IMG/VR virus record: IMGVR_UViG_3300020417_002200
Span: 1-34,308 of that record
Origin: a virus
DNA length: 34,308 bases
Reading direction: 5' to 3' (one strand)
Both the position numbers and the translations under genes were made by a program. A model generated the notes under the pieces. It searched no databases, was not told the origin of the DNA, and was given only the letters and a program-made list of their open reading frames with translations. Position 1 is the first letter of the stretch. Each line of letters begins with the position of its first letter. This document shows positions 8,479 to 30,000 of the stretch, piece after piece.

Positions 8479-10014
8479 TTAGAACTCGATTACGATTTTA
8501 ATATCCTCGATTTGGTCTCCAGCACGAGTAATCGCGCCCCTGTTATCTATGTAGATAACTTCTCCAGAGTTAGGTTGGACCTCAGGTTTGGCATAACCAT
8601 TAGTGAATGCCATACCCAAGTCATATTCCGTGTTGTTGATAACTCTGGTTGAGGAGCCAGAAACAATCGGGAAGTTAATATCAGGGTCAGCAGATGCACC
8701 TGATGTTGCACCTACGACAGGGTTACCACCCTCAAACTCAATTAGGTTTCCAGTGAATTCAGGGAATACACCGTCAATTCTGTTTTGGTAATACTTAAGG
8801 ACTTTTGTAGTAGAATTCCAAGAGATTACACGACCACGAGCAGTTACTTGTTGACCACCAATGGTCCTAGACTGTGTGATAATTTCGTCTGTTTGAAAGT
8901 TACCAGTAAAAGAAGGAGAGAAGATTACCGCTTTTGTTGCTGACAAAGTAAGGTCAGAAGTCAACTCCTGAGTGCCATACTTAAATGGGTTAATAACCAA
9001 ACCAATACGACGGTAATCGTTATCAGTTGGGAAGTCACCACTACCTTCAGCATAGGTAAACTTGGTGTTAATCATGACTCGGAAACCACCCAGCTCAGTG
9101 GCAGGGTCAGCACCGTGTCCAGTTACGGGTGGGATAATGACTTCGACGCTACCCCCTGTACCTGTCCCTGCACCGATTCCGTTGACTTCATCGATGATGA
9201 CTTTACCGAAGGTGTATCCACTTCCTCCCGAAGTAACAGTGGCGTTAACAATACGCCCACCATCAACAACAAGCGAAACACGCCCGCCAATGCCATCACC
9301 TTTAATGGGGACATTTTCATAAGTGCCATTGTTATAACCAGAACCTGAGGACGCAATAATAACAGTATCAATTTCACCACCGATAGCATCTGCTACCACG
9401 GCAGTGTCACTCAACACTGGCATATATTCGTTGGAGAAGAATTTTAGGACTTGACCAACAGGGATCGTATACATATACTTCCAACGATAACCATCGGCAG
9501 TTGTAATAACGGATGTGGAAGTACCAGTAGGCTCAACAGTAGAAGGTTTACCGTTAGGATCAGAAGGACTGGTCCCGTTGTAGATGCACTTATAGACCTG
9601 ATACGACGAGTTAACGACGTAAAAGTCTGCATCATAAAGTTTCGTCGCACCCGACGAAGCGGTTTTAGTCGCGGAGTAATCATGACGATACATGTCATAA
9701 ACGTAACCCAAACCACCAGTGGTCTGTTCGGGTGGAATCCAATCTGTACGACGGATAACTTGAATCGTGTCATTTGCTAACACACGTTTCAATGATATCA
9801 TGTCAGCATAGTCATCCGAAAACTCTTGGAAAGAGTCAACAGGATCAGGTGCTGCATTTTCGTTGTCCCATGGTTGAGGACGACCGATGAACACGTACAG
9901 TCGGTCACGGTCAGCTCCTGCTAAGAGGTCAGATTGCGTGGGGTCGGGACCCTCAAGTGCTTTTCTGAATCTTTCAGCAGTAAAAATTCTAAACTGGTCG
10001 GTAAGTAGTGCCAT
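8479..10014 (-). CDS. 8: T4-like baseplate wedge protein gp8
   Basis: The N-terminal third carries the gp8 pattern: TDQFRIFTAERFRKAL, a YVFIGRPQPWDNE segment, RRTDWIPPE, YDMYRHDYSA, LYDADFYVVNSSYQVYKCI, then DGYRWKYMYTIPVGQVLKFF. In T4, gp8 is one of the proteins making up each baseplate wedge. At 511 residues it is longer than T4 gp8 (334). Part of the excess is a glycine-rich insert at about residues 213-300 with two GSGY units (GSGYNNGTYENVPIKGDG and GGSGYTFGKVIID) like those of neighbouring proteins. The core resumes with FRVMINTKFTYAEGSGDFP and RRIGLVINPFKYG. ATG at 10014 follows a 35-base gap containing CATAAATA and a weak purine-rich tract. It ends one base before the DUF4815 gene. I am confident of the family, less so of the insert boundaries. 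Confidence 0.93.
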   Translation of the reverse strand: MALLTDQFRIFTAERFRKALEGPDPTQSDLLAGADRDRLYVFIGRPQPWDNENAAPDPVDSFQEFSDDYADMISLKRVLANDTIQVIRRTDWIPPEQTTGGLGYVYDMYRHDYSATKTASSGATKLYDADFYVVNSSYQVYKCIYNGTSPSDPNGKPSTVEPTGTSTSVITTADGYRWKYMYTIPVGQVLKFFSNEYMPVLSDTAVVADAIGGEIDTVIIASSGSGYNNGTYENVPIKGDGIGGRVSLVVDGGRIVNATVTSGGSGYTFGKVIIDEVNGIGAGTGTGGSVEVIIPPVTGHGADPATELGGFRVMINTKFTYAEGSGDFPTDNDYRRIGLVINPFKYGTQELTSDLTLSATKAVIFSPSFTGNFQTDEIITQSRTIGGQQVTARGRVISWNSTTKVLKYYQNRIDGVFPEFTGNLIEFEGGNPVVGATSGASADPDINFPIVSGSSTRVINNTEYDLGMAFTNGYAKPEVQPNSGEVIYIDNRGAITRAGDQIEDIKIVIEF

Positions 10015-10049: not shown

Positions 10050-11912
10050 TTATTCATCCTCGTTTCTAACATAAGTTGTGTACTCAACAGAAATAATATC
10101 TGCCTGCGCACCTGACGTATTACCACGTAAAATTTCTCCAACTTGCCACTTATAAGTGGGGTCGTTTGCAACAATATCCTTAACAGTCAATGTAAACTGA
10201 CCATCTTTAGGTCCAGTCACTCTTTCAACTGTGGTTGCAGTTAGACCTGTTGTTAGACCTTCTACAACTTCGGCGTTTCCACCTGCACCTGGCACATTGA
10301 ATAGTGTGGCAGTGTTATATGTAATGACTATATTTGCTACAGATGTGTGAGTATCACCATCTCCCAAAGCACCAGCAGTACTAATAGTTGCAACCAAAGG
10401 TTGTGCGTTACCATCGTAGATTTGGTCACCAACTTGGAAGAGAGTTGTGTTTTGACCACCAAGTGTCTCCTCAATACCATATTTAGACGAGGCGATACCC
10501 CCATCTAAATTAATTTGGTTTTCATACTCTGTCCCAGTGTTAACAAGGTCAATAATACCGTCACCCGCACCATCTAATTCATCATCATCCTCAAACTTTC
10601 TATTAAGGATTAGACTAATTGGACTTGTAAATGCAACGATATTTTCTCCTTCTGCCTCTACCAACACATGAGGCTCAACACCTGTGCCAGACGATGCAGC
10701 AATACCACATACAAACGCGATAATTTTTGACTTCTCATTAGAGCGACCAGCGTCAATAAACGCCAATTCATCAACCTGAAATGTCAGGTAAAGTGCTCTT
10801 TCAGTAGGGTCCCAATCATATACGATTGCAACTCTATTATTAGAGGACTCAATAACTCTTCTTACCTTATCAGTAACTTGGAAATCATATTGAGTTATCC
10901 CATTTTCATCATTCTGCAAACTATCGAGAATGACTTTTTGGTCAAATCTAAAGTTGATACCTCTATCACATCCAGTAAATGATGTAGCAGTCTTACCTGT
11001 ATATCTGATAACTTCCCTACCAACCAGGAATTTACCTGAGCCTGCATATGGGTCAGTTGTCTCAACATGTATGGTGTCACCACCACTGCTGACATTAGTG
11101 AGTAGACCTGTCAGGTTATACAGCACAGAGTTTAAGCTCTGTCTATTTCTCGCTGTCCTAATAAGGTCGGTATCTCTTGTAAAGATAATGTTTGGTGTGC
11201 TTTGATATCCACTACCACCAGAGATTAGGTCAATGTTGGTAATAGCACCAAGGTCAATATAGGCCGCGGCAGATGCACCGCTACCACCGCCACCAATAAT
11301 CTGAATAAGTGGAGGAGTCTCAAAGAATTCACCAGCGTTGGTAATTTGAATGCTACTAACTTGACCAAACTGATTGACGTTTGCAACACCAGTCGCACCT
11401 TGTCCACCACCACCTGAGATGATAATGTTAACGTCTTCTTCAGTATAGTTTCTACCAGCCTGCTGAATAGACAAACCAGTTAGCAGACCTGTGATAGGCA
11501 CCAACTCACTACCTGACCCACCACCACCTACAATGTTTGCCTCAGCATCAAAATATCCATCACCGAAAGCGGTCATCTGGATATAGTCAATACCACCGTC
11601 AGGTTTTAGAAATACATTACCTGTCGCTGAGCCATCTGAATTCTCATCTTCAATTTCTAATCTTAGAGGGTCATATCCTTCACCAGGATCTAAAACCTCT
11701 ACAGCAATAATCTCACCTTTACTACCAGCGATAACTGGTCTCAACACTGCCTCTCTAATAGGTGTGCCACAATTACCAATACGAAGCCTAGGTGGGTCAT
11801 TAGGGTCATAACCTGACCCCGACTCAACGACATAGACCTCCCTCACCCCGAAGATGCTGTTAAACATCGGGACGATTTGTGCTCCAGAACCAGTAACTGT
11901 GCGTGTTGTCAT
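10050..11912 (-). CDS. GSGY beta-repeat structural protein (620 residues)
   Basis: ATG at 11912 overlaps the previous gene's TGA as ATGA, so the two are translationally coupled. Roughly residues 25-245 hold six tandem units of about 35-40 residues with the pattern I-x-GSGY-x(3)-P-x-I/V-x-I-x-GGGGSGA (for example GSGYDPND, GEGYDPL, GSGYQSTP), some degenerate (GRNYTEED, GEFFETPP). A phage beta module follows at about 270-330 (FLVGREVIRYTGKTATSF, GCDRG), like one in the DUF4815 protein. The last ~30 residues are a WQVGEILRGNTSGAQADI module. These are structural, probably beta-rich folds with no catalytic residues seen. The gene directly precedes gp8, and its repeat type is also found in gp8 and the giant protein, which suggests a baseplate-peripheral protein or fibre. 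The exact role is unknown. Confidence 0.88.
   Translation of the reverse strand: MTTRTVTGSGAQIVPMFNSIFGVREVYVVESGSGYDPNDPPRLRIGNCGTPIREAVLRPVIAGSKGEIIAVEVLDPGEGYDPLRLEIEDENSDGSATGNVFLKPDGGIDYIQMTAFGDGYFDAEANIVGGGGSGSELVPITGLLTGLSIQQAGRNYTEEDVNIIISGGGGQGATGVANVNQFGQVSSIQITNAGEFFETPPLIQIIGGGGSGASAAAYIDLGAITNIDLISGGSGYQSTPNIIFTRDTDLIRTARNRQSLNSVLYNLTGLLTNVSSGGDTIHVETTDPYAGSGKFLVGREVIRYTGKTATSFTGCDRGINFRFDQKVILDSLQNDENGITQYDFQVTDKVRRVIESSNNRVAIVYDWDPTERALYLTFQVDELAFIDAGRSNEKSKIIAFVCGIAASSGTGVEPHVLVEAEGENIVAFTSPISLILNRKFEDDDELDGAGDGIIDLVNTGTEYENQINLDGGIASSKYGIEETLGGQNTTLFQVGDQIYDGNAQPLVATISTAGALGDGDTHTSVANIVITYNTATLFNVPGAGGNAEVVEGLTTGLTATTVERVTGPKDGQFTLTVKDIVANDPTYKWQVGEILRGNTSGAQADIISVEYTTYVRNEDE
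11175..11840 (-). repeat. Six-unit GSGY glycine-rich repeat array in the 620-residue protein
   Basis: Six coding repeats of about 105-120 bases each encode a beta-strand, a G-x-GY turn, a P-x-I/V strand and a GGGGSGA loop. Some units are clear and others eroded, so this is an old duplicated protein repeat and not a recent DNA tandem repeat. Confidence 0.75.
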
Positions 11913-13405
11913 ACGATTATGATGTCACCAATCATTGCTGTGTGTGATGGGATACCACACTGATATTTGTAGTTAGTACCTGGCGACAGTGACATAGGAA
12001 TCGTGTAGTATTGGACTCCTTCATCGCTACCACTTGTGCCATTGGTAATAGCAGACCCACCTGCTGATTGTCTAAGTTTGAATGGGTGAGATGCACCTGA
12101 AGCATTATGGAATCTGTAAGTAAATCCTCTCATCAGATAGATGGTTGGATTCCATGTGCTACTTGATACGCCAGGTCCATCAAAAGACCATCCATTACTT
12201 GTGTTACCATTAACAACCCATCCGATTGTAGGAGATGCAACGGTTTCTAAAGTGCCGTTTCCATCAACGATTAGGTTGTTATTCTCACTAAGACTTTGAC
12301 CGCTAGTGAGAGAAAGTTGAGCTGTAATAGTTGCAGTATTACTACTTACAGCGGTAGTAATGCCGTTGCCTCCAGCGATGGTGAAAGTGCTATCGCTGGC
12401 ATTTGCAGTATATGACCCACTATCACCTGCAACACCCTGCAATACGTTTTGGACAACGTTGGGTGAAGAGTTTGTAATTGTTAGATTATCACCATTAATA
12501 GCGGTGGAAACCCCAGTGCCACCAACAAAATTAATAGTAGTAGCAGTAGAATTAGCCGTCTTGCTTCCGCTGTCAGAGCCGATACTAGAGAAGATATTTT
12601 GGTCTGCATCTCCTAATGCTCCTGTCATATTGATGGTAACTGTATCTCCAGCAATAGATGTGGAGATGTTAGTGCCACCAGCGAATGTTAACGTATCCGT
12701 CGCAGCAGACGCCGTAGTCGTACCAGAGTCCGCATTGATTGTCTCGAAAAGGTTTTGTGTAGTGCCGCCACCACCGCCAGTTGAGGCAAGATCATTTGCT
12801 GGCTCCCATTGCGAATTTGCTGATACCCATTTTAACACTTGACCATCAGAAGGTCCACCACCTGCTGTTAAATCAACATCAGTCAATTCACCGATGCTGC
12901 TACCAGAGTCAATCAGCTGAATCCATGCTCCACCATGAGCAAAATATCCATGGTTTTCTGCGTGCACATGTGCAAACATACCATGATGGTTTGATGCAGC
13001 AGGCAAGTCACCTGTAGTGTCAAAGTGATTGGTATACTTTAGTTTACCGTCAGTGCCATCAATATAAGTTAGTGCATCTCCTGTGCCACCTGCCCAAAAT
13101 TTAATATGACCACTACCATTAGGTTTGATAACGACATCACCATTAGATGATGAGCTGATTTGGAATCCTCCAACGTCTAGATTTTCTGTCAACGTTGAAA
13201 GACCACCCTCTACAAATGCTGAGCCATCCCATTTAAGGAATTGTCCATTAGAAGGTGTGCCGATATTAATTTGCAGGTTGGTATCATTACCAAGAGCTGT
13301 ATACAACTCATTAATAACGGAATTCAGTTTGATAGCGCCATCTCTCAGGCTATCACCTGTCCCGTCATTAGCGGATGAGCCGATGTTGAGGTTTTGCTTT
13401 GCCAT
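11909..13405 (-). CDS. Fibre-like structural protein with cupredoxin-like C-terminus (498 residues)
   Basis: The N-terminus (NLNIGSSANDGTGDSLRDGA then IKLNSVINELY) is a motif common at the start of T4-like phage fibre-type proteins. Residues ~215-358 hold three tandem units of about 45 residues, each beginning Q-N-(L/I/V) and containing DSG-x(2)-TA, an F/I-x-GG core and a T-x-I strand. The last ~80 residues resemble a cupredoxin: a YRFHNASGASHPFKL strand, then YKYQCGIPSHTAMIGDI. H440, C483, H488 and M491 are spaced like type 1 copper ligands; C-x4-H resembles azurin. Whether copper is bound is unknown. ATG at 13405 follows a 25-base gap with no clear Shine-Dalgarno. The stop overlaps the next start. 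The likely role is a minor fibre or a decoration of the baseplate; this is inference from family and context. Confidence 0.88.
   Translation of the reverse strand: MAKQNLNIGSSANDGTGDSLRDGAIKLNSVINELYTALGNDTNLQINIGTPSNGQFLKWDGSAFVEGGLSTLTENLDVGGFQISSSSNGDVVIKPNGSGHIKFWAGGTGDALTYIDGTDGKLKYTNHFDTTGDLPAASNHHGMFAHVHAENHGYFAHGGAWIQLIDSGSSIGELTDVDLTAGGGPSDGQVLKWVSANSQWEPANDLASTGGGGGTTQNLFETINADSGTTTASAATDTLTFAGGTNISTSIAGDTVTINMTGALGDADQNIFSSIGSDSGSKTANSTATTINFVGGTGVSTAINGDNLTITNSSPNVVQNVLQGVAGDSGSYTANASDSTFTIAGGNGITTAVSSNTATITAQLSLTSGQSLSENNNLIVDGNGTLETVASPTIGWVVNGNTSNGWSFDGPGVSSSTWNPTIYLMRGFTYRFHNASGASHPFKLRQSAGGSAITNGTSGSDEGVQYYTIPMSLSPGTNYKYQCGIPSHTAMIGDIIIV
12330..12760 (-). repeat. Three tandem QN...DSG...GG beta-repeats
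   Basis: Three in-frame repeats of about 135-145 bases encode the starts TQNLFETINADSG, DQNIFSSIGSDSG and VQNVLQGVAGDSG. Each continues with TA-x(5-7)-F/I-x-GG-x-x-I/V-x-T-x-I. They are diverged copies, consistent with a fibre-shaft beta module. Confidence 0.75.
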
Positions 13406-13427: not shown

Positions 13428-13435
13428 TATTTAGG
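13428..13435 (-). promoter_or_regulatory. Weak late-promoter-like element (CCTAAATA)
   Basis: CCTAAATA on the minus strand overlaps the TAA stop of the upstream gene and lies about 22 bases before the ATG at 13405. It matches TATAAATA at six of eight positions. A T4-type start would leave only a very short leader. It may simply be a TAA stop followed by A/T. Confidence 0.25.
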
Positions 13436-15029
13436 TGCCGTCGAAGGACTGAGCGGTAGAATCCATAGTCGATGATGTACTATCGAATCTATTAGCAAGG
13501 TTACCGCCACCACCTTGTCCAGCAACAGTCAGTGTGACTGCGTTAGAATCTAGTGGTGAGTTTTGTGCTGCTGGGGCACCGAGTGGTCCCGTAATACGGA
13601 CTCGATACTTATAACCAGTCATATATGCCAGTGCAGTCACCTGATAAGATGCTGCTGTTGCTCCAGTGATTGCTGCAAAAGCGAAACCACCGTCAGTGGA
13701 GCGATACCATTGATATCCAATAGGACCGTTTTCTGGCAAAACTTGTGAATTGGCAGTAAACGTAGCGGTCTCGCCAACGTTGACTGTTGCATTCTGGGGT
13801 TGCAGTGTAAACTGCAATGTGGATGGTGCAGGACCACCACCTCCTTGGTCTCCACCACCACCCTGATCGGGCACTACAGTGGTGTTTGTATATGTGACAT
13901 CAATCAACTCTCTAGTTGTCAATCCACACATGAATGGAAACTCTGCGTGAGTTACATCGTCAGGGTCAACACTCAAGAAGTATGCATATGTGCCTGTTGG
14001 ATATTCTGGTGTGATACAAAATCTTCCATTATGGTAGTCTAGGTCACCAGTGCCCTCAACATACTGCCAGTCCTCAACGAGAGACCCTGCAGGGGGGTTT
14101 TCGGGAGTGCTACCATAGTCAGGTCTACCATCAACTTCCACGTCCCTGATAGCATATGATGAGGACATGGGTTTGGTGCCACTCAAATTATCCCATGGAT
14201 TCTGATAGGCATAAGGACCATATACAGGGAATCCATCAAAGGCGACTCCAACCATCTTGGAGTGTCCATCAGGATGTCTGATGTTGTCTCCGTTATATTG
14301 TGTGGTGCCATAATAATCATTATAAGATGCTATAGCAGACCCTGCTTTCCAACAAGACAGGAAGTCTGAATCATGATAATGATATTGTCCAGACTGCTCA
14401 GGGTGACCACCACAACTATCAGCACCAAAACTGATAGGCAGATTATCTGCATGAGCATTCCAACTAAACCCTGTAGGAGGGTTACCTCCATCACCAGCAC
14501 TAGGATTAAACAGTGCTACACCATTAGCAGAGATACCAATAGTGCCTAGAGGAGTATTAGTCCTACCATTTCTCTGGTCATAATATGTGTAAGCACCTGT
14601 AACAGGTGTTGTTGCCTGGTCAGCAACAATCAAATCAAGTCTGTCATCTGATGCTAACCAACATTCGCCATCAATAGATGTGAATGATGTGCCCTTAAAC
14701 AGAAATACTTGTTTATAGTCATCAAAGACAAAGAGAATACGGTCGCCTGGTCGAATACTTGGATTCGCACCAGCGAATAACGCATTGTCATTTAACGATA
14801 GTGTTATCGAGCGAATAAAACCGTCATGAGTATAATTGGCATCATCAAACTGACGGCCAATACCAAATGTCCCACCACGATAGTAGAAGTCGTGGTCGAA
14901 ATCTTGCTCTTGAACAGTGTTGGGATTGTTATCATTGGGAAACGTACCATAACCTACGGGAGCAGGCAGACCATCTGCTGCTACCGTAAGAATTCTAGTA
15001 CCTGAAACGTAACTTGCAGTGCCCGCCAT
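13431..15029 (-). CDS. YHYH-domain plus Ig-like domain virion protein (532 residues)
   Basis: ATG at 15029 lies 14 bases after the stop of the giant gene, with no clear Shine-Dalgarno. After a beta-rich N-terminus, about residues 155-390 form a complete YHYH domain: IGISANGVALFNP, a SCGGHPEQSGQYHYH core near residue 213, VGVAFDGFPVYGPYAY, then GDLDYHNGRFCITPEYPTGT and YAYFLSVD. YHYH domains occur in secreted and phage proteins, but their activity is not established; the conserved His, Cys and Asp residues suggest metal or ligand binding. Residues ~400-507 are an Ig-like domain (FTLQPQNATVNVGETATF ... YQWYRSTDGG ... YRVRITG), a common virion surface add-on thought to aid weak binding to cells or glycans. 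A short Ser/Thr-rich tail follows. Both modules recur in the neighbouring giant protein, which points to shared ancestry or exchange. Confidence 0.9.
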   Translation of the reverse strand: MAGTASYVSGTRILTVAADGLPAPVGYGTFPNDNNPNTVQEQDFDHDFYYRGGTFGIGRQFDDANYTHDGFIRSITLSLNDNALFAGANPSIRPGDRILFVFDDYKQVFLFKGTSFTSIDGECWLASDDRLDLIVADQATTPVTGAYTYYDQRNGRTNTPLGTIGISANGVALFNPSAGDGGNPPTGFSWNAHADNLPISFGADSCGGHPEQSGQYHYHDSDFLSCWKAGSAIASYNDYYGTTQYNGDNIRHPDGHSKMVGVAFDGFPVYGPYAYQNPWDNLSGTKPMSSSYAIRDVEVDGRPDYGSTPENPPAGSLVEDWQYVEGTGDLDYHNGRFCITPEYPTGTYAYFLSVDPDDVTHAEFPFMCGLTTRELIDVTYTNTTVVPDQGGGGDQGGGGPAPSTLQFTLQPQNATVNVGETATFTANSQVLPENGPIGYQWYRSTDGGFAFAAITGATAASYQVTALAYMTGYKYRVRITGPLGAPAAQNSPLDSNAVTLTVAGQGGGGNLANRFDSTSSTMDSTAQSFDGT

Positions 15030-15040
15030 CGTTTTACTTT

Positions 15041-15048
15041 TATTTAGT
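15041..15048 (-). promoter_or_regulatory. Doubtful late-promoter-like element (ACTAAATA)
   Basis: ACTAAATA overlaps the stop codon of the giant gene and ends only 12 bases before the next ATG. This is too close for a normal late promoter with a leader. It is listed because the same TAAATA core recurs at three other gene junctions. Confidence 0.15.
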
Positions 15049-18000
15049 TGTCATCGAAGATTTGTACTGGGCTGAAGTTGCTCAATACGGTTGCACCTGT
15101 CTGGACGCTAAGGACAGCACTCAATGAGTAAACAGGAGTTGCACCTGCAGCAGTGATTGCGACTCTGTATTCGTCACCATCGTCTGCCTGTGCAGCGTTG
15201 TTTGTATTGTATGTGGACTGGTTAGCACCAATGATGTTGCTCCAAGTCTGTGTGCCATATTCCTTCTTCTGCCACTGATAATTGAGTGAAGAAGTGTTAG
15301 TAACTGTTGCCGCTACTGTGAAGGATGCTGTCTGACCTTGGTTAACAGTCACGTTAACTGGGTCAATCTGAATAGCGATTGTGCCAGGTGTGATTGTTGT
15401 GCCACCAGTGTATTCAGCACCTTCACCCGCGAGGACATCGAAACCACCGTTGACAGGTGTGCCAGTAGGTTCGACGAAATCTACAGGGACTTCAGTCTCA
15501 ACGTCAACTACAGGTGAGGTGTAACCAACACCCGAAGTCTTAACATCAATTCTTGTGATACCCATCAATGCCTTGATTTGTGCGTCAAAACCAGAGGAGG
15601 AAATAACGTCAACATTCGGGCGTGAGGAATATCCATCGCCAGGATTGGTGAGGATAGCGTTAGTAACCTGACCAGAGATAATACTTGCAAGAGCAGCAGC
15701 GTTACGACCCTTAACTGAGCCAGTATATTCAAAGGTAATCAAAGAGTTGGAAGACTCAATCAGAGCAACATCTCTTCTAAATTCTTCACCCTCAATTAAC
15801 AGTTGGTCACCAGCTTCAATAGGTGGCACCACAGTTGCAGCAATCACGTCAGCGTCACTACCAATGTAGGAGAATCCAACGAATGTGCTACCTGCGCGAG
15901 GCACTTCAGCGAAGATGATTCTAGAACCCACAAGCTCGTATGCGATGCCAGGTTCCTGAATGATACCGTTGAGTGAAACGATAATGTTGTTTTCAGGGAG
16001 GATAGTGTTAGAAGAAACACCCTCAGTAAGAGTCAGTGAGTAGAAGAGACCTTGACGCTTGAGGTTGAAGGACGAGCGTAAGGAGTCAAACTCAAAGCTG
16101 ATATCATCCAACTGACGCAACTTACCAACATAGTATCCAATAAACTCAGACCCGATTTCAGGTGCCTCGTTGAATTGAATCTTGTCGGAGAATGCAACGT
16201 AAGATGCGTTACCGCCAGGTGGTTGAAGGACACCGTTAACAAACACGAGCAAGTGACCAGCAGGATCTGGGAAGTATGCTTCACCATTGCTGACTGTGAG
16301 GTCAAACTGTGTCTGACTACCGTCAAATCCTCTAAAGTATCTCTCAACTCTACCTTCCAGTGTGCGTGCGTTAGTAACAGCACCACCCCATCCATAATCA
16401 GACTTAACAGTCATGTTATTGGAGAATACGCCGACAGCATCTTCGACCCAAATGGTTGCAGTGATACCTTGCTGCTCAATAGCAACAACTTTACCGTAAG
16501 TGAAGGATTGTGTATCAGTGTAGGAGTTAACCTGTGCGTAGATAGTTGGGAAGTTACTACCAACATCAATCTTACCGATAGAGTTAGCAGGGTTAGACAA
16601 TTCAGAGATATCACCACCAACACCCACAGGAATGAGGTTAGCGATAAACAATCTATGAATGCCATATTGAGGGTCACTTGGGTCAAGGTCCAAACCGTTG
16701 ATATACTCAGTTACCGTTGCACGGAAACCAGGATTTTTCTCAATGGTGCCTTGTAACAAGGATACTTGGTCGCCAGGTCTGAATGTATCAGAAACGCCAG
16801 TATCAGTAATAGCAGTGCCCAACTCAAGTTGATAGATGTTGGTGCCGTGGATAAACTGGTTAAGTTGAATCTGAGTGCCAGAGATACCCTTAATATCAAG
16901 GATGTAATCTGTAACACTACCGTAGATAACGTCGCCAGGCTCCCACTCGTTAGTGATTGTCTCAACATCAATCGTGACACGACCACCAGTGTTACCAGTC
17001 AAACTACCAGACTTGTTAACGTAGGATGACATGTAACCTTCGGCAGCGTTGGAATCGCTGAAGAAGTAATCATCAGTATCAAAGTCACCACGCTCAACGT
17101 TGATAAGCAGTCTGTCATCAGATGTGCCGACTGTAGCAGTTGCACCTGAGGTGATACCTTCGATGACTGCACCAGCAGCGATTGTGCCAGCAACGTTGAT
17201 AAGTTTGACGAAGGACTCGCCGTCGTTATTAGTCTTAGTTGTTTGAAGGACTTTACCAGTGTTAGCAGTTGCACCTTGGACCACGACATCTTCACCGTTA
17301 ACGAAGTTGTCATAAATTGCCAGTGTCTGTGAAACGTTGGTGAGAGGATAATTCTTAAATTTCTTAAGGATTCTTGCCTCGTTAGCAAAGACGCTTCCAA
17401 CCTCAGATGTTGCTTCAGATGTAGACCCGAAGATAACGTCTGCAGGGTTAAATCCACCTTGGATTGGAGTCTCAGATGGGTCTGCAGGGAATACAGAAGC
17501 GACACGATTAATACCACTTCTTCTAACAACAGAGAAGATTTGCTGACCACTGTTAGAAAGGTCTGGAAGTAATTCTCTGAATCTACCGTCATGAATGTAG
17601 TGAGCACCAACTTCAAACCATGTCGCAGTTGCAGTCATCACATACCAATAAGATTGGGTAGCGAATGCTTCGACAGAAGTCTGAGATGCTGGGATGTATT
17701 GTAGGATATCACCACGACGGAATTGGTTAGAGCGATATACTCTAACTCTATACTCAGCACGGTCAAATCCAACGTTGACTTCAGGTGTGAGGACAACCAA
17801 AGCAGGGTCAGTGTTGTAGTCAACACCCATCTCATACTTAAGGTTGCGAGGCATGAGGTCTGTAGAAGGCACAAATGTGACACTTGCTTCAGTCGGGAAT
17901 TTAGACATCTCCAAGGAATACTCCATCGGGTTGAAGGAGGAATCCATGATGAATTCTGCTGCCTCTTGATTGTAATCCAATCTTTCAGGCATAACGTAGA

Positions 18001-21000
18001 TGTCATATCCAGTCCAACCAGGATCTCCCAAGTCATAGAGGACTGCCTTAGCATATTCTCTCAGACGTGTGATTGTGTAGAGTAGATGTGAGCGGACAAC
18101 ATTATCGAAGGCGATGAAGTTACCTTCACCGTCAAACCATGTCTGTGTAAGTTTGAATGCGCCAGCATTACCGCCAGTAATCATGTCATAGCGGACTGCC
18201 TTCATTACTTGATGGCAGAATTCCATGGTCACATTAGTTGTGCCATAGTATTGGGTGACCATATCAAAGGCACGACCACAGATTGCTTGGTCATTAAAGG
18301 CAAGCATATTAGCAACACGCTTGTCATTCTTAGTGCCACCACCAAGAGCATGTGAAAGCAACGACATCAAACTATCGATAGCAGATGTTACGTTGTAGCA
18401 TGTGCCACCTTGATATTCTGTATTACTATTGAATGGGAATGTCTTAGTTACACTATTAGTAAGATAGTTGGAGTTAGCAGTTGCTGCCTGAGTAATAGTC
18501 TCAATAGGAATTTCCATGAGAGTATTGATTGCAGAAACAACCTCAGGACATGTCATATTCCATGTGCCCTCAGCATCAGACCCACCATTACTTTGGTCGT
18601 AGGTTGTGCCAAGTGCTCTATGCACGCTGTCGGGAGTATACTTAACAGGCCATACCTTCGGAAGTGTGACAGTGCGTCCAAAGATTTGACTAGGATTAGC
18701 AAGTGCATCAACAGGAATTGCCATGAGTGTTTGCAACTCAGTAACCACAGCATCAGACTCATTGCCAGAATAATCTGGGTCAACCTGACGTGCTCTGTAG
18801 TATTGCAACTCAGAATGGACTCCGTATGACCAACCAGTATTAGTCTCACCAGATGGGGTTGTTTGACCGCCAGTAACGAAACCAGCAACACTACCAGTTG
18901 TAGACCATACTCCAGCACCACCGCCAAGACCTTGGTTGAGTGCAGGTGTCTCACCTTCACCAACGAGGTTACCATCAATCCAGAGTCTTACGCGACCGTT
19001 ACCAGTTGCCTGTGACCCACCACATCTAACTTCCCAAGCAATTTCATGCTGTAATCCATCCATATAGGTTGCAAGTCCAGAGACTTGGACATCAGTAACT
19101 GCAAGACCATTGATGGTATTAGCAGCACCACCAGCGATAGAATCGCCAACACCAGCACGCAATCTGAGATATGTGCCACTATCGCGGAAACCTAACCATG
19201 TGCCATAAGTGGAATTACCAGACTTAAACAACATCTGGTCGCTAGGAGTGCCGTTAGGTAGAGTAACAACCGCTGTCATCACAAAGTCATCGCCAGGATC
19301 GAAACCTGTAGAAGAATTTGTGCTAACGTCGATAGAAGCATTTGCAGTAAATGTCCTAGTTACATTGTTGTTGTATTCTGTGCCAATTTGGACTTCTCCA
19401 GCAAGGACATTCAATAGACTGTTGCCAGGATTAGGCACAGCGTCAGTGAATCTCTGAGCAACACCATAATTTGCAGTGTTGGTAATAATCTGGTCTCTCA
19501 TTGCACGGATTGCAAGGTCACGTGCTCTGTTGATAATCCATGTAGTTTCAGCAGTCAGTCCAGTAACGTGGATTGCACTGCTACCACCATAACCAACATA
19601 GAATTCTGAAGCATACTGCATGAAGTTGTCACCGTCATACTTCAAGTTGAAGACAGCGGCACGCACAAGGTCAGTAACGTCATGGACACAATCGATAGCA
19701 CCAGCAGACCTAATGCAGTTAGTCTCAGCACTAACCCACTGGTGTGTATATTGTTGACCAGCAGGAGATGCACCAACGTTAACAGTAACAGTGCCAGTCT
19801 GTTTCTTAATAGCGCCAGCGGTGGCACTTACGAAAGTATGAGGATACTGGTCTGCCTGTGCACCGACGCCAACGTAACATGTAAATGTGTCAGAATCTAC
19901 AACAGTTACAATCAACCACTTGTTGTTTGCAGGGTCAGTGGAGCGAGGATAGGAATGATTAGTTGCATTGCCATCTTTGGTGCAAGTAAATGTAATACCA
20001 TTAGTTGCAATCTTAATTCTATCTCCAGTTGTCAAACCATGAGCACTAGAAGTGTTGATGGTCATCTTACCAGTTACTTGGTCATAACCAGCTGTAGATA
20101 CATCATGAGAAGTTTCACCAACAGCAGTGACAGGTAGTGTCACGTTATATGCAGGGTCGCTTCTGCGAGGATACGGATGATTAGACCCGTAGTCATCCTG
20201 AGAGCAAGTGAATGTTAAACCATTCTCTGCAATATACAATCTGTTACCAACATTGAAGGAGTGGCGTGGGATTGTCAATACAAGGTCGCCACTAGAAGCA
20301 GTATATGCACCAGTTGTAGGTGTGAAATGCTCACCACCAAGATTTCTACCGTAACGGACGCATCCAGTTACAGCACTTTGGAATTGGTGTGTATATTGCT
20401 GGCCAGTAGGAGATGCACCAACGTTTACCTGAATAGTGTCTTTGGTGACTTCTTCAATCTCAAGATACTTCTCATATGCAGGGTCAGTTACACGAGGATA
20501 TGGATGGTCATCAGCGTAACTATTCATTGAGCATCTGAATGTGATACCCAAAGGAGCAATCTGAATTGTTTCACCACTTTGGAATCCATGGTTAGGAATG
20601 GTGAGGACCATTACACCAGTTGCTGCAGTATAAGTTGCAGTGGTAGGAGTTACTTCCTTAAACCACATTGCACTGCTACCACCGTTAATAGCAAGTGAAG
20701 GATACTGTGCTTTACCATCTGCTACTGCTTGCTCAGCGATATAGCGAATGTTGCTATCAATAGCATCACCACACTTCTTATAAATTTCATCTCTAGGATT
20801 CTGCTCATATGACTGGACAGGAGTCGTATCAGCGGTATTGCCGTCAATATAATCTCGGCCAAAACCATTACGCAAGGTCAAAATTGCGATGTCTCTAGTA
20901 ACCTTCATTGTGGTTACAGATGCTTCCCATTCAGTCTCAACGTGCTTCAGGGAGTTATTTTCTGTCTCGATATAAAGAGCAGATGCATCATATGTCTTCT

Positions 21001-24000
21001 CGTTGCAGTCATACAGAAGGTCATGACCGACAGAATCGAGAATATCCACAACGTCATCCTCACAGTTAACAGGTCCACCAGCGATTCTCAAATGAGAATA
21101 CTTGGACATGTCATTCATAATTGCCACTGCCTCTTGAGCAATCAGACGCTTATTATCCTGAATTGCATTTACAGAGTCGATAAATCTGTCATTGACACTT
21201 CTATTATTCTGAGGATATCCTTCAGCGTCAATAGTGACAGTATCATCTCTATAAGAGCTACGTGTCGTAAACTGTGGGACGTAGTAATCATCTTGTGACC
21301 ATGCTGGGATTCCAAGACCTGATGCAGTTTGACCAGGTGAGAGGAGAAGTTGATTAACTGCCTTAGTTGCAAGCATCTTGGCATAATCAAATGCATCAAG
21401 CATTGCATTGAGCTCATGCTCAACATGCAAGATATTTTCCTGAGAATCAAGATATTGGTCGATTACATTCTGGACCTGATATGTGCCACCTGTAGCAAGG
21501 TCACCGATAACAGCAGGAAGAATGAAGTCCTTAACGTCTCTTTCACAATATGGTTGACCATAACCAGGCATCTGTAAGAAGTCATACTCGGTGCCGTTGA
21601 TAGTTGCTTGATACTTATCTTGAATGTAACCAGCAACTTCTTCTGCAATGTAAGAGCGATTTTTCCAAAGTGCCACACCACCATCTCTAAATCTGTCACC
21701 AGTAGGTGCCAAGACTTCAAGCATCGCATCCATTAGGCCGCGAATCTCATCTTGGACGTTTTGAGTTGCAGGAGTTGCGAAGTTATTGGGGACTCTTAGT
21801 CTCTCAGTATATGTGCCTGTAAGGTCATAAGAAGTTGTTGTGACGATATCAATCATCAGGTCAACTGTCTTATCCCATGCATACAGAGTCTGAAGAATCT
21901 CATTACCAACGTGCTTCAACTTACCAGATGCTTCCAGATAAGTCCTTGCAGTGTAAAGGGTATGGTAGTTACCACCTTCTCTGAGGTCTTTAATAAGCGC
22001 ACCAAGAATATAATCCTTAGTATCTCTTATACACTTGTTAGTGCCAGTATAAGACTGTGATGCAGGGTTGTCGCCAGGAATTGTAAAGTCTGGGAATTGT
22101 GCCTGCATCATGCCAACTGCTTCTTCAGCAATCCAAGCATCATTCAATTCAATAATACCTGCTGCTTCTCTGAATGGAAGTCTTCCAAGGTCAACATCTT
22201 CGATGATAATTTCATCTTGACCATAGTCAACATTCTTAGCAGTTGCAGAAGAAATACGCTGACCAGTATAGGTAGCAAATGTCTCAGTAGTAGAAAGGAT
22301 GAATGGTGCTTCACCATCAAGTCCCAAGGAGATTCCTTGACGACTAAAGTCAATCTGAGTAGGAGGTGTAAATCCTGCGCTGTAATCTGCAAATCCTTTT
22401 CTAACAACCAGATTATCAATGTTTCCAGTAAACCCAAGAGTCTGCTGGAAGGATGTGCCGACGTAGCAAGGAGCATAGAGATATTGATTAGTGTCTGCGG
22501 TAGACCCAACAGATACACCGTCAACATACAGAGTGGTAACTCCTGTGCTTCTAACAACAGCAATATGATGCCAGTTTGTAGGCACCAATGTGCCACCAGA
22601 AACTAGAGTTGTGTTACCATTAGCAACTCTTACTGTAGTGCCATCGAGATATACTCTAAGACCAGATGTAGCGGATGTGCGTCTAAAGTCAACTATATGT
22701 TGTGTGCCAGACAGTGCATCAGCATACAACCATGTCTCGATTGTGAATGCTTGGTCAGCAAAGGTAAAGTCGTAACTATCAGGTGCAGTCAGATAACCGT
22801 TAGATGGAATTCTAATGGACTTGCTTCCAGATACTCTAGGATTCTTAACGATAACACTTTGTGTGCAAGGACCCTGATTAGTCAGTCTGGAGTTGGTGAT
22901 GTATTCATTATCAGTGAATGCCCCAGTTACATTACTGGTAAATATCCACTTCAGACCAGAATTGACGCCAATAGCAGCTGCCGATGCATTAGATGTAATA
23001 CCCTTAATGACATCGCCAGTGATAAACAGACCACTAGACTTATCCTTATAAGCAAGTTTAATAGTCCTTAGAGTTTCATTATTAACGAATGTGCCGTCTG
23101 TGATAGTAGGAAGTGCGTTGACATTAGCAAGTGTGCCTGCATCGATTGCAGTGCCAGCAATATCAACAAGAGTTGCAATGTATGCTTGGACGTTAGCACA
23201 GTTTTGAATAGTTTCGTTTCTACCAGAAGAGTAGTTGGGGTCGAAGTATTCTGCCTTAGTGCCACCACCAGTAAATACTGCATCAGGAAGTGCATCAACA
23301 AAGGTGTGTGCATAGTCACCACCAGTGGTAATAGCATTTGTGACACCAGATACGAAAGTATGCTGATACTGCTGGTCGGCAGGAGAAGCACCAATCATGA
23401 CAGTGATTGTAGTCGCTGTCTTAGAAATGATTCTGATGTATTCTCCAGAATAGGGGTCAGTAGAGCGAGGATATGTATGGTTACTAGCGTTAGCATCCAT
23501 CGCACATGTAAATGTCAGTGCGTTGTCTGCAATTCTAATCATCTGATTGAGTTTGAGACTATGTGCCCCAATCTCCATCACCAATCTACCAGTAGCAGGG
23601 TCGTAAGTTGTGCCTGTTTGAGCAGTGAAAGTTGAATTAGATGTAACGCCTACATTGACTGTAATAGTTGTAGGAGTTACTGCACTGATTGCAAGTGCAG
23701 TATCGAATGATGGGTCACCAGCTCTAGGATAGGAGTGGAAAGTATCGCCATCATCAGCAAGACATGTAAATCTCAGTGAATGAGGTCTAATCTTAACAGT
23801 ATCTGAAGTAGTCAGAGAGTGTGTGCCGATGGTCAATTCCATGACACCACTAGATGCTGTATAAGTTGCAGCACTTACATCAAACTCTTCAAGGGAATCA
23901 TTACCATTCTCATAAGGACCAACATATGTGGTTGGGTCCTTAAGCATGAATCCTGTTACAGATACTCTGCTATTAACCTGATGATAAAGGAGGTTGTTGA

Positions 24001-27000
24001 TTGCCTCAAACATCAAATGTTGGGCCGCGGCGAATACAGTTAGAGACGCTGCTTCTTCACCTGTCAGACCATTGGTGATAGGTGTGCCGTTTGCTTGGAA
24101 ATACTTCTTAGTGAATTCAACGATATTGAAGTTACCACCGTCAGAAACGTCTTGTGCGATAGCATCAATCATCAGACCAACGTCACGACGACATTTAGTC
24201 TGGCCTGGTGAGTAAGTGCCAGCGGTTTCATCAGGCAACTCAGTCAAGTTACCATTAGTAAGAGCAGTGTCTACAATCTCATGTAGAGTTTGCATTGCTG
24301 CCTGCACATCGGAGCAGTTGTCATTACCTTGGTTAGATGTATTAGCACCATTAGTACCGTAATCATCATTAGGTGATGGGTCAGCAGTAATACCATTACC
24401 GTCATAACCCTCGTTTGTCAACTCATTATGATAGGGGAATGTAATGCCAGCAACACTACCATTGACTCCAGTGTAGTCAGCAGTGATTTGGTTGGTAATC
24501 GCCAACTTCATCCATGCTAGTGCTCTTTCAAATCCATAACGAGTTTCAGCAGATTCGTTGTTTACATAAACGAATGCACCGTTAGCATCGAAGTATTTTT
24601 CAGAGAATTTACGAGTATAGACGTTACCACCACGGAATGTGTCAATAGCAATCGCCTTGATATACAACTGGATATCTCTTACACACTTAGACTCATCGGG
24701 GACAGTTAGAGATGGATACTGAGTAATCATCTCATCATATGCCACAGCAGAGATATAATCGATATTCTTGATAATCAGACGATATGCATCAGAATATCTG
24801 CTCCATGGGTTTGTAATTACATCGCCAGGGAAATAGAAGTATGGATGCTCAACTGCAATCTGTGCTTCAGCAAAATCAATAATTTGCTGCTTATTGCCCA
24901 GAATCATCGCAGAAGCATCTTTGAATCTGTTTTCTGCAGTTCCGTGGAAGGAAGAGTTAGGATTGTTGTAATTTACTCTTCTGTTGACGATAGTGTCGCC
25001 AGCAGAAATTGTGCCACCAGTTAGACCTGTATATACAACTTCAGTGCTTCTGACTTGCTCAAAGTCAAGGAAGTCTTCATTAATTCTTTGGTCAGCAGCA
25101 TACAACTCTGTAGGAGTAATAGACGACTTAGAAATATCATCAAGAATCTTATTGGGATTAGTGATGCTAACAAGACGCTCAAACAGTAATCCGAAGAATG
25201 TAGAGCCAGGGTTGATAATCAACTCGTCTACAACGTCAGAAGTGACAGGATCGGTGTATGGTGCGATATATGTGATTTGACCAGCAATCTTAGACTTAGC
25301 AGAGTAGATAAACTCATTAAGTCTCAAATCAAAGATACCAGTCTCAAATCTTGGAGTACCTGATGTTTTACTGACCACAATGCGGTCTGAGATGGTCCCT
25401 TGGTCATCAATGTTAGTTTCTTCGATAATAGCGGTATCACCTTCGAGATTAGTGATAGATTCGCCAAATTCAAAGATTGTAGAGGTATTAACCAGAGTTA
25501 CGCTTTCAACAAACGCTGCAAACAACTCTCCTCTAACAACTTGCTCATTAAGGTTAAATGTGCCTCCAGTGAGGTTAATAACGTCAATATGAGCTAATCC
25601 AGAGTCAATAACGGTTGCAATGGTGTCAGAATCTTCACCTTGGACTTGTTGACCCAAAGTTGGGAAAATACCGAAGTCGTTACCGCCAAGAGAGTCATAA
25701 AGTGCAATTCTGTAGATAGGAGTTGGTGTAACACCCAAAGTCCTATAGTTAACCTTAGAAGGTGGTTTTGGAGGCTCAGCAAACACAAGATTGCCGCCAA
25801 CCACTTGATAGGACTCACCAGGCGCTTGAATCACACCATTAAGCGTAATCATCAACTGGTCTTCGCTAACAATGACTTGCTCGCCTTCTACAGTGATTGG
25901 GAATTGCTTATCGATACCATTGAAGTCACCAGAGATGTCATCCATCTTTTTAACGATAGATGTCAAGATTTCCTCAGAAGAAGTCAATCTTCTCTTTCTG
26001 AAGAGCACTTCAGTGTTGTTATAGTCGGTATAAACGGGTTCGGCAGCACCGAATGATGTAATCTCGTTTACATTACTATAGTTGTTGATATTCACCTGTT
26101 TGGTGAATTCTGTGCCAATACGACGACCAGAAATGTCTTTACCGCCAGTCAGCTCCAACTGACCAAACATGTTGAAACCAGCGGGGTGGTTATTTTCCAA
26201 TACCTGAGTTTTCCACTCTGTAATTGGGATATTGGACTTAATAACGTATGAGAAGTTTTGGTAGAAGTAAGAGTCTTGAATCTTCTGGACAATCTCGGAA
26301 GGTTTACCAACATCGTCGATAAAACGACCAGGTGTCCTAGTTAGAGAGTCGATATTAAGCACACCACGTGCAATGCTCAAGTTGTCGATAAGACCAGATG
26401 CTTTGGAGATTTGACCAGTTACTTTCTCGCCTCTCAACCAATTACCGTTATAATCAACAATCTTAAGAATCTTAGGACCAATCTGCCAACCAGTATTGGT
26501 AGAAACGATACCAGTTGCAGTTGCTGTCTCAGGACTGCTACCTTGATAAACTTCCTCACCCTCAAGGAATCTAGAAGTTTCAACCACTGCTTCAGCACGA
26601 CCACCAAAGACTTCAGTAAGCAATACCTGACGACCTTCACCAGTTGTCAAGAATGTAATGTAGTCACCAGCAAGTGCGTTTGCTTGAGTCAGTGCAAAAC
26701 GAATTTGGTCAGATTCGAGTGAATTTGCTTCACCAGCAATAGCATAGTAAACCTGCCCTTCAACCAAAGTGGTCAAACCTGCACTACTTGGTTTTGGAAG
26801 GATACCTTCTGTGCTACCTACATCTTCTGCTCTAAACGTAACTGCAGCACCAGTTGTAATACCATGAGGGAAGTTAAACTGCAGATAGTTAAGGTCAAGG
26901 TTAACAACGTAGTTAAATTCTGATTTAAGAGTAACAGTAGGCTCAGATGAGTATCCAGCACCAGGATTCTTAATGATAATCTCATTAAGTCTGTTATTCT

Positions 27001-30000
27001 TGATAATTGCTTCAGCAGTTGCTCCAGCACCGCCACCACCTTCAATGACAACAGCAGGAGTTGATGTATAACCAGAACCTGGGTCAATAATGGTAATTTC
27101 GGAAAGAATCGAAGTATTGAAGAGTTGGAGGTTAACTGGGAAGGTAATCTCAGGTTTCAGAGTATAATCGTGTGAATAACCGAAACCAAACTCATTATTC
27201 TTCAGTCTCTTAATCTTACCGATGTTTCTACCTGTCAAGAAGACAGATGCACCGCTACCTTCGCTAGGAATGATAACATTTACAGCACCACCAGAACCTG
27301 CAAGGGTTGGTCCAAGAATACCAGGAATAGCATCAATATCAATGCTTGCAGTGGTATAACCTTTACCTGGGTCAGTAACTGCAGCATTAGTGATGGCACC
27401 AGACCCAACTTCATCATCTAGGACAACTGTAATCGTTGCTTTACCACCTTCACCATCTCCATTGATGGGCACATCATAATAGACGCCAGCTGCATATTCA
27501 GTACCTCCATCAACCACCACAATCTTCTCGATTTGACGGAAAGAGGCAATATCAGAAATAATTGGTAGTTTCTGGTAGAATCCACCAGGTGACACCAGTT
27601 TAATTGTATTAATAGGTCCAACTGCTCTTGTAGAAGTTGTAGAGTAGAAGGAATATGGATTATCAAACTCATCGTTGATAATTTCAGCAGATGACCTCTC
27701 AGGCTCCTTAAGAAGTGGGAATCTGAATTGGAAATCGGTCAGAATCTGAGAAACAGTAAACGTGCCTTGATATGGAGTCGTAATAACGTCAATAAAGGAG
27801 TTGGACCCAACAGGTGAGTCTGCTCCAGTCCTAGATGGGTCAAAGTAGTAAGAGATGTTAGTAACATCGCCCAATACGGAGAATTTGACGAAAGGTGCAC
27901 TAGACCCTGCAGCATTAATACCAGGTGTGCCGACTCTTTCGATATTATTGAAAGAATACTCTAGTTTGTACTGATTATCCTGAGAGAAGGACAGATAGTA
28001 TCCGAAGTTAGAAACATCAGACACATCAAAGACGTATTGGTGATCTCTAGTAAATTCTAAGGTTGGGTGCTTAGCATAGATGTTGACATTCTGAATACCA
28101 TTGTTATTAAAGGCAGGGTCAGACACTGCAGTCGCTCTAATAGCGAATGTAAACTCTCTGCTACCAAATAGTTGGTCAATGAAGAAACTTCCGTTGAATT
28201 GGTTTCCTTGGAATCCTTCAGCAAACAGAATATCGCCAACTTTGAAGTTATGAGCACTATTGGATGTGCAATATACAAATTCAGTCCTTGCAGAAGCAGT
28301 CCTGAGAATATCTTTCTCTAGACGTGCTGTTACGCGAATTTTCTTAACTCCAGCAAAACCAGAAATCTCTACAGACTTCTCATCTTCCGCTAAAGTGATA
28401 TTATTGTCATTAAGTGAAACAACGTCGCCAGGAATGTATGTGCTGCCTGGTTGGATGTCAATAATCTCTACAGAGTAGTTTGCACCTTGTGCATAAGGCA
28501 TCAAACGTGTCTTAGCACTAATTGCTTCAGAGGTTGCAATATGAGTCCAAGTAACGCCACCATCAGATGCATCACCAGTAGTATGGACAGGTGCAGTTTC
28601 TCCTGCAACGCCACCACCACCGACTGCAACTTCATATACATTCAAGCGATACCATACACGCTGACCGACAGCATAAAGCAGACCAGGCACCCACTCAGGC
28701 ATATCAAGACCAATATACTGAGGTCTAGGATAAGGATGCTGAGTTAGGTCAACAGTAAACTTACCTGCATCGTCAATAAATGCCCAGTTGATAACACCAT
28801 CAGATACAACACCAACAGTATGAGTTGGAGAAATTGTGCCTGATGTGCCAGCACCCTGTGCTTCATAAATTCTCTTGCCGTTGTAAACACGGTCACCAGA
28901 GGCATATACAGTATTAGTTGCCCATGGTTTCTCTTCTTCAATAGTATCGAAGTATGTGCCTTCGATTTCATTGATATCATTAGCAGTTGTTCTGAATCTA
29001 TCGGTATTGTTGAAGTTACCATAGATTTTACCAACCTTATACTTATTACCAAAACCAGGATTCAGTAATGTGCCTTCAGGGACTTCAACGATGGTGCCGT
29101 ATGCTTGAGTAACACCATTAGAGTTGAATTGCTGTAAGATACTACCCTTAGTAAGTTTTACATCTTGGTTAAGAGTAAATTCAAGGACGTTATCAATCTT
29201 CTGATAGAGTGCATCTCTCAGATAGAATTTCTTGACAACGTTAGCAGCAATCGTAAGTCTCTTACCTTGAGGTGATGGGACAGTAGATGTCTTAGTGCCA
29301 TACTCATGCTTGTTAGCAGTTAGTGCATATGTACCAGGAGTTAACGTGGACGCGGTTTGTGACATGTCCAGAATCTGCAAACCACCAGGTCCAATCTCCC
29401 ATGCACTAATGGCAGACTGATTAAGTGATGTCCATACTGTGCTGAGAGTAATATCGGTAAATGCAACAGTCGTATACTTTGTATTACCTGTCATTGTGTA
29501 GGATGCACGCTTATCATGCAACCTATCAAACTTGATTAGAGCAATATCACTATCAGACATAGTGACAGGCACTTCTGCTGCTGGGACTTGGAAGGTTGCA
29601 CTGTAAGGTGCCTTGTCATCTATAACAAGGTCATCCATATGACCAATAAAGCAGTTAGTGCTGCCAGGTGCAGTTTGAGGACCAGCAACTACAAGTGCAT
29701 CAAGAGAGATGTCATTTGTGCTCTGATATTCAACAGCAAGGTTACCATTGAAGTAAACTTCATACTTATAAAGACCGAGTGACTCTTCACGTTTCTGGAA
29801 GAGGATGTGATTCCATGCTCCACCACCCATTGCAGTCCAATAAGTAGCAGCAGTGGAAGATGCAACTTGTGTATTGTTAAGATACACAATAAACTTCTGG
29901 TAACCAGGCGATGTAGTATCACCATCCAGAGAAATTCTTATAGGTTGACCACCAGAGATAGGTGCAATGTCAAATAGGACAGGCTCATGATTTGTGGCAT

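Follow-up and report, generated by a model that had tools for sequence, protein, structure and literature searches.

A cupredoxin domain with a conserved candidate type 1 copper site at the C-terminus of a T4-like baseplate connector

The connector and its C-terminal domain

The 34,308 nucleotides of IMG/VR virus record IMGVR_UViG_3300020417_002200 (positions 1 to 34,308, called the window below) contain an open reading frame (ORF) at 11909-13405, on the minus strand like every other feature of the window described here, whose 498 amino acid (aa) product was annotated from the ORF itself, Pfam, and PHROGs as a T4 gp9/gp10-like baseplate wedge/tail-fibre connector with a C-terminal cupredoxin domain. 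Against Pfam, this protein matches T4_gp9_10_N at E 2.6e-9 and 37.8 bits, above the family's cut-off of 25, and in PHROGs the whole connector is assigned to phrog_677, "baseplate wedge tail fiber protein connector," at E 1.1e-139. The gp9/gp10-type N-terminal domain spans residues 3-89 (13139-13399), as judged from Pfam and from a connector profile of 12 full-length sequences (the window's and 11 others) that was searched against the Protein Data Bank (PDB). At its N-terminus this profile matches T4 gp9 residues 7-147 (7.3e-11) and T4 gp10 residues 2-40 (1.6e-10), and at its C-terminus it matches amicyanin (E 0.008 and up). When the full ORF was searched against Pfam, PHROGs, and NCBIfam, no cupredoxin label was returned.

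An earlier note on this DNA had proposed, from the letters alone, that the end of this protein is a cupredoxin-like domain with four plausible copper ligands. The C-terminal location held up, while the extent given for it, about 80 residues, proved too short: the AlphaFold2 (AF2) model, PDB matches, and a family profile place the domain at about residues 391-498 (~108 aa, 11912-12235). T4 gp10 has a C-terminal domain at residues 397-602, to which the connector profile gave no sequence match; the C-terminal part of the connector is a predicted cupredoxin instead, although absence from a list is no proof.

For the domain searches and the structure prediction the last 113 residues were used (residues 386-498, 11912-12250). 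The AF2 model, built from 59 distinct sequences, has a mean predicted local distance difference test score (pLDDT) of 92 and a predicted template modelling score of 0.84. In a Foldseek search of the PDB, 50 of 50 among the matches listed are either cupredoxins or copper enzymes made up of such domains, and the 50 rows listed by VIA-align are likewise proteins with cupredoxin domains. The best VIA-align match is residues 26-134 of the three-domain nitrite reductase 6tfd (Z 10.4, root mean square deviation [rmsd] 2.3 Å, 93 aligned residues, 15% identity); Z is at least 8 in 73 of 998 chains, with rusticyanin at 8.9. The model and these structural matches describe a Greek-key beta-sandwich of the cupredoxin type, and the structure prediction and comparison with copper proteins that the earlier note had suggested therefore bear out the predicted fold, which the last ~108 residues almost certainly adopt. 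In the model of the full-length connector, a monomer of a presumed trimer with a mean pLDDT of 67.5, the cupredoxin part from residue 391 onward keeps block values of 86-95 and the remainder is mostly poor.

The model also bears on whether the four residues named by the earlier note could form one site. Numbered within the domain, Cys98 ends strand E93-98, His103 and Met106 lie in the loop before strand E107-112, and His55 stands just before strand E57-60. This predicted placement of the Cys, the second His, the Met, and the first His is cupredoxin-like and speaks against their lying far apart, as judged from topology.

Homology to type 1 copper proteins

Single-sequence searches with the window domain gave weak results, so a family profile was needed to reach the copper proteins. 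With a profile of ten sequences (the window's and nine others), the PDB search yielded 18 sequences at E up to 1, all of them type 1 copper proteins, the best at 0.011. A more diverse profile of 34 rows retrieved 59 sequences within the same E limit, every one a cupredoxin-type copper protein, led by amicyanin mutants at E 2.7e-5, with wild-type amicyanin (1aac) at 7.6e-5. In the alignments to amicyanin and rusticyanin, the H, C, H, and M of the phage domain are paired one for one with the known ligands. When the four ligand columns were masked (in 26 of the 34 rows), amicyanin was still the best match at E 0.005 and 15 of the 16 matches at E up to 10 were copper proteins, so the relationship does not depend on the ligands alone, though it is much weaker without them; this masked control is slightly rough, since with X in the masked columns a few rows moved by two positions around the second His.

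The Pfam Copper-bind model (PF00127) matches 14 of the 34 diverse rows at E up to 1, the best at 7e-4. The window domain itself falls short of the PF00127 gathering cut-off, with no match at E up to 1, and it was therefore filed as a cupredoxin and not as a PF00127 member. One relative does pass that cut-off, namely the second cupredoxin copy in the proximal tail fibre of phage P-SSM2 (23.3 versus 21.2 bits), for which the nearest NCBIfam model is amicyanin at 5.7e-5, below that model's own cut-off. Taken at the level of sequence comparison, the profile searches show the domain to be a homologue of the amicyanin-type proteins.

The candidate copper site and its conservation

The putative ligands, taken from the sequence and the alignments, are H440 in the motif SHPF (codon 12086-12088), the thiolate ligand C483 (codon 11957-11959), the second histidine H488 (codon 11942-11944), and the axial M491 (codon 11933-11935). 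All four stand where the earlier note had put them in the translated ORF, with the spacing H-x42-C-x4-H-x2-M exact. C483 is the sole Cys of the 498-aa connector; likewise, the site Cys is the only one in 47 of 59 full-length orthologues, the remaining 12 having two. The exact spacing arose in none of 200,000 composition shuffles of the protein, and a loose form, H-x30-70-C-x2-4-H-x2-4-M, arose in 252 of 200,000; the case is carried more by conservation and fold than by the motif.

The earlier note had further likened the C-x4-H spacing to that of azurin. The value is right for azurin, but among the phage relatives it is a lineage insertion that most of them lack: the close set of 59 sequences (window included, as in all counts for this and the diverse set) has C-x4-H-x2-M in 22 and C-x2-H-x2-M in 37, and the diverse set of 34 has them in 5 and 29, respectively. 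As read from these alignments, C-x4-H is a two-residue insertion local to the window's subgroup.

The four ligands are invariant in 59/59 close sequences, whose relatives are 49-88% identical to the window domain, where 21 further columns of the 106 tested are invariant as well. They are equally invariant in 34/34 diverse rows, which reach down to 30% identity (30-88%), and here only 11 of the 99 tested columns are invariant, four of them being the ligands. A profile scan of all collected loci gave 109 distinct stretches, many of them near-duplicates; some belong to different virion proteins in other phages, proximal tail fibres and large structural proteins among them. Of the 109, 100 carry all four ligands, none shows a substitution, and the remaining nine are incomplete at their ends (H only in five, CHM in two, CH in one, and HCH in one). 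Among six further records, chosen as described below, complete matches keep H, C, H, and M, with the set in S-RSM4 lying in split pieces; in one partial match of 43 residues the first His column holds Ala, and the other incomplete matches show gaps.

Part of the Cys conservation in the main IMG/VR set is built in, since that set was found with patterns including ...YQC and FTYRF[NH]N, the best 80 of 285 being kept. His440, His488, and Met491 lie outside both patterns; a separate search giving nine loci also used HPFKLRQS. A probability of 9e-5, computed alongside the shuffles and the counts of invariant columns, assumes independent columns and serves as a guide only. On these alignments and the predicted fold we regard the domain as a real cupredoxin whose type 1 copper site is intact and strongly constrained, and the site is probably competent for copper. 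The earlier note had also offered a trace of capture from an electron-transfer protein as an explanation; taken as a decayed site, this finds little favour, given that so few residues are invariant and the ligands belong to them. Its other suggestion, a module for stability or binding, may be right.

Distribution among phages

At E up to 1e-3, a tblastn search with the domain matched 317 of the 50,697 phage records searched; by name these 317 are Synechococcus (246), Cyanophage (50), Prochlorococcus (18), and Marine (3). For scale, the gp8-like protein of the window matches 459 records at E up to 1e-5 (Synechococcus 374, Cyanophage 61, Prochlorococcus 24). No Escherichia or Shigella name occurs among the domain's tblastn matches in the phage records, whereas Escherichia and Shigella T4-like phages do match the first 40 residues of the connector, among the matches listed. 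The domain is also found in phages of Methylophilales (Melnitz) and Pelagibacter (Mosig), and is therefore not tied to photosynthetic hosts. Six further records were chosen blind to the domain, three from a search with the rest of the connector and three without such a search; P-SSM4, S-BM3, Mosig, and S-RSM4 match the domain profile, and neither S-PM2 nor T4 has a cupredoxin-profile match at E up to 0.01. The domain is common in cyanophages, without being shown universal there.

Its position was surveyed in 23 records, 22 of which had been picked because they match the domain. It ends the connector in 16 of the 23, the window included; in three (P-SSM2, S-SCSM1, and Sf-CH8) it occupies roughly residues 55-200 of what the annotation calls a proximal, long, or plain tail fibre, and four records have it in other positions. 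Some genomes have several profile matches, P-SSM2 and P-HM1 having four each, and in the window the profile found no further copy among frames at least 40 aa long, the next-best match scoring 5.4 bits (E 0.47). The P-SSM2 proximal tail fibre (AY939844.2 223225-226509) holds two cupredoxin copies together with a Peptidase_S74 chaperone domain. Seven records lack the domain on the connector, namely P-SSM2, S-SCSM1, S-H34, P-HM1, Sf-CH8, S-TIM66, and Melnitz; a separate gp9/10-type protein exceeds the cut-off in two of these, a weak match lies within a 1826-aa frame in one, and four have none. An either/or pattern, in which the connector or else the tail fibre carries the domain, is suggested by these sequences, and the counts are suggestive only. 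The annotation of S-ShM2 (NC_015281.1) divides the connector between two ORFs, 402 and 945 bp long, that overlap, with the phrog_677 match split and one part containing stops, perhaps through a frameshift or a sequencing error.

Among predicted viral structures (BFVD), many of the 50 matches listed are cyanophage tail or virion proteins. Six rows of the same search, entered as "Beta-sandwich protein" or uncharacterised and named for pithovirus or marseillevirus, also match the fold of the domain.

As for origin, a pattern scan of genome contigs gave five loci, from three metagenome-assembled genomes and one isolate assembly, all of them 496-504-aa frames ending in the domain, and one of these loci proved to be cyanophage-like. 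The scan, whose peptide patterns reach close relatives only, revealed no cellular donor. Over the 3,318 bp compared, the contig NZ_RMVE01000006.1 (188,235 bp), filed as Nonlabens xiamenensis 1Q3, shows 98.9% identity to cyanophage P-TIM40 (188,632 bp), and owing to this identity and the nearly equal length it is most likely a cyanophage genome within a bacterial assembly. The GC content of the domain (0.428) is near that of the rest of the gene (0.442), so base composition does not point to a recent transfer.

The rest of the connector and its neighbours

Between the N-terminal domain and the cupredoxin, the connector has three fibre-type repeats of ~50 aa at residues 217-266, 269-318, and 319-368 (12302-12757), matched by eye on a QN.., DSG, GG.. 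pattern, which appear as low-confidence beta hairpins in the full-length model; the cupredoxin follows them at the end of the protein. A His-rich stretch, HHGMFAHVHAENHGYFAH, at residues 140-157 (12935-12988) includes an HVH motif of the HxH kind and varies among relatives, being kept in S-WAM1, P-TIM40, and S-SZBM1 and altered in P-RSM6; HxH motifs are proposed iron sites in phage fibres, according to the available part of that work (PMC11705849). No export signal is visible by eye at the connector start (MAKQNLNIG...).

The neighbouring genes include a gp8-like baseplate wedge subunit at 8479-10014 (PF09215 2.4e-18; phrog_438), a 620-aa baseplate-linked protein at 10050-11912 (phrog_22827 and phrog_708, baseplate wedge subunit), a 532-aa virion protein with a YHYH domain at 13431-15029 (PF14240 8.6e-37; phrog_25852), and a 6383-aa ORF at 15044-34195, which by the gene order of KU686210.1, judged by size and annotation only, holds the position of the S-WAM1 "baseplate wedge initiator." On the same footing of size and annotation, the baseplate genes around the connector follow the order of Synechococcus phage S-WAM1. 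A PDB search with the YHYH neighbour returned 35 antibody-fragment matches, most likely through a Gly/Ser-rich linker-like stretch, and these were dropped. A phage protein named for YHYH appears among the structural matches of the cupredoxin in the predicted viral structures, so the two domains may be fused elsewhere.

When the 8.5 kb around the gene were searched as DNA against the phage collection, the five best of 78 records showed 77.7-78.6% identity over 23-24% of the query. From its sequence the virus looks like a cyanomyovirus of Kyanoviridae that has no close named isolate in that collection. Deposited records of relatives name the connector both gp9 and gp10, and the sequence alone does not decide which is its counterpart. 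As far as the available text of the T4 account goes (PMC3004832), both T4 relatives are trimers on the baseplate rim, gp9 being the long tail fibre attachment protein and gp10 a part of the pin. By analogy, and because of homology and gene order, we infer that the connector sits on the baseplate, probably as a trimer on its rim. That a copper-type fold had been placed by the earlier note on a virion-type protein accordingly agrees with T4_gp9_10_N, phrog_677, and the gene order.

Comparison with known cupredoxins and phage metal sites

Amicyanin, rusticyanin, plastocyanin, and azurin share with the phage domain the cupredoxin fold and the order His, Cys, His, Met, and the C-x2-H-x2-M spacing of amicyanin is that of most phage relatives. 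The differences from cellular blue copper proteins are that the phage domain stands at the C-terminus of a virion-type protein, that it has HP where they have HN, and that in the window's subgroup Cys and His stand two residues further apart. The best structural match comes from Hyphomicrobium, whose three-domain nitrite reductase (2dv6, 6tfd) begins with a blue-copper domain; this N-terminal domain has C-x4-H as in the window, but it belongs to a redox enzyme and is 15-17% identical to the phage domain. T4 gp9 and gp10 resemble the connector in the N-terminal domain, and a gp8-like gene lies near it; in contrast, T4 lacks a cupredoxin-profile match at E up to 0.01, and the connector profile covers only the stretches of gp10 and gp9 given above.

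Plastocyanin (petE) is an auxiliary metabolic gene in some cyanophages (PMC3037559, PMC5083919, PMC2984593) and has been reported in Syn9 and P-SSM2 (PMC2984593), as far as the accessible portions of these papers go. That is a separate, host-type plastocyanin gene, whereas in Syn9 and P-SSM2 all matches of our profile lie in frames of 406-1175 aa and none is plastocyanin-sized, so the virion cupredoxin is distinct from petE. A metal has been described in a phage adhesion structure before, namely iron at HxH motifs of T4 gp37, under the "Ferrojan horse" hypothesis, which was also proposed for marine phages (PMC11705849, as far as its available part goes). The gp37 site holds iron by HxH in a trimeric fibre, unlike the single-chain His-Cys-His-Met site of the phage cupredoxin.

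Interpretation of the site

We lean towards the reading that this is a genuine cupredoxin with a complete type 1 site, that copper is held in the virion, and that its role is mainly mechanical. To our knowledge nothing else explains well why His, Cys, His, and Met should be invariant together in a cupredoxin fold. Type 1 sites are pre-formed and bind copper tightly, and since they do, sequence conservation of this kind makes it somewhat probable that copper is actually bound in the virion. His440, Cys483, His488, and the axial Met491 would hold the metal there. By holding the ligand loop in place, the copper would make the terminal beta-sandwich more rigid where baseplate and long tail fibre join, and the domain would serve the baseplate/tail-fibre connector as a joint or tip module stabilised by metal; the alternative place near the start of tail-fibre proteins fits such a joint. 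A structural or attachment role is, on balance, favoured by us over a redox one, and the HxH-bound iron reported at the T4 fibre tip, in the part of that paper available (PMC11705849), offers an analogy for it.

Several observations weigh against this reading. Free copper is very scarce in the cytoplasm, the site of virion assembly, and copper uptake would for that reason have to occur outside it: the connector would be synthesised there without metal and would receive its copper during lysis or later, or at the envelope of the next host. The residue after the first His is Asn in plastocyanin, azurin, and amicyanin, and multicopper oxidases have HPxH; here it is Pro in 34/34 diverse rows, with other residues in some wider copies, so that hydrogen bonding to the Cys would differ from the standard. 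The Foldseek TM-scores reach only 0.45-0.57 with rmsd of 4.6-9.5 Å, from which it appears that the loops differ from those of known cupredoxins; the single-sequence PDB search with the window domain was weak (2dv6 at E 0.022); the domain alone drew no Pfam match at E up to 1; and the Pfam At5g54830-like model also matches 12/34 rows, weakly (best 0.0025). S-PM2 has no cupredoxin-profile match at E up to 0.01, so the domain is not universal, and no cyanophage connector structure appeared in the PDB profile searches, its baseplate location resting on homology.

Some of these points would be accommodated if the domain were a metal-free structural sandwich, a rigid surface module captured and kept with its site residues serving packing and hydrogen bonds and with no copper at all. 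The copper-poor place of assembly, the uniform Pro after the first His, and the lack of a match between the window domain alone and the Pfam copper model are what such a module would predict, and we consider it unlikely though deserving of serious weight. Packing roles are usually met by several different residues and metal-free cupredoxin-like domains usually lose their ligands, whereas here the four ligands stay invariant down to ~30% identity and across different virion proteins, and one family member exceeds the Copper-bind cut-off. The single conserved Cys could instead serve as a thiol or disulfide anchor, tied to an adjacent protein of the baseplate by a bond that is covalent or responds to redox state. 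In T4 gp10, Cys555 is the only Cys conserved among T4-like gp10 proteins and a bond to gp7 has been suggested for it, in the available text of the account (PMC3004832), and the site Cys is likewise the sole one in 47/59 orthologues; yet an anchor leaves two His and the Met, equally invariant and in cupredoxin order, without explanation, as it does the occurrence of the same residue set in tail fibres and other virion proteins, and we hold it to be very improbable.

A role in redox chemistry or copper handling, in which the domain would take copper from the host envelope or give electrons to it at attachment, would suit the completeness of the type 1 site and the fact that 314 of the 317 domain records are named for Synechococcus, Prochlorococcus, or cyanophage. 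We think this improbable, and no less so in the form of a guard of progeny or host against copper or oxidative stress: phages of Methylophilales and Pelagibacter have the domain as well, no electron partner is known, and copies per virion would be few. T4 stoichiometry gives about 18 chains per virion. By our estimate such a number makes the phages a negligible copper store, and a reservoir role is thus unlikely. A chance motif in an unrelated beta-sandwich could point to the 252 of 200,000 shuffles that yield the loose pattern, but the fold, the homology seen with the masked profile, and the conservation strongly disfavour it and leave its likelihood close to nil.

Beyond a stabilised joint holding copper, a bolder form of the idea is a metal-dependent latch, in which the site would be copper-free in the cell and loaded outside, copper would lock or arm the baseplate, and infectivity in many marine T4-like phages would depend on copper from the environment or the host surface. 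We regard this as a long shot.

Significance

The cupredoxin kind and the T4-like connector are each known; what appears to be new is their combination and the conservation of the site. No report of a cupredoxin in a phage virion was found in the open full-text literature, covered for the broadest queries only as far as the papers listed; subscription papers are mostly outside it, and this is therefore weak evidence of novelty. In the portions of the copper-protein literature on phages that were accessible, the subjects are petE or host plastocyanin, Borg cupredoxins, viral NirK, and azurin as a drug, with no virion cupredoxin among them. Likewise, none of the tblastn annotations mentions copper or cupredoxin among the matches listed (two listings of 60 rows each).

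A name, cupredoxin, is now available for the C-terminal part of phrog_677 and its relatives. The domain can probably be expressed in soluble form, which would make the copper content of the virion and any copper dependence of adsorption or stability directly testable. Metals in phage tails have so far been discussed, in the parts of that literature available, as HxH iron, and a type 1 copper site would add to this another metal and another chemistry.

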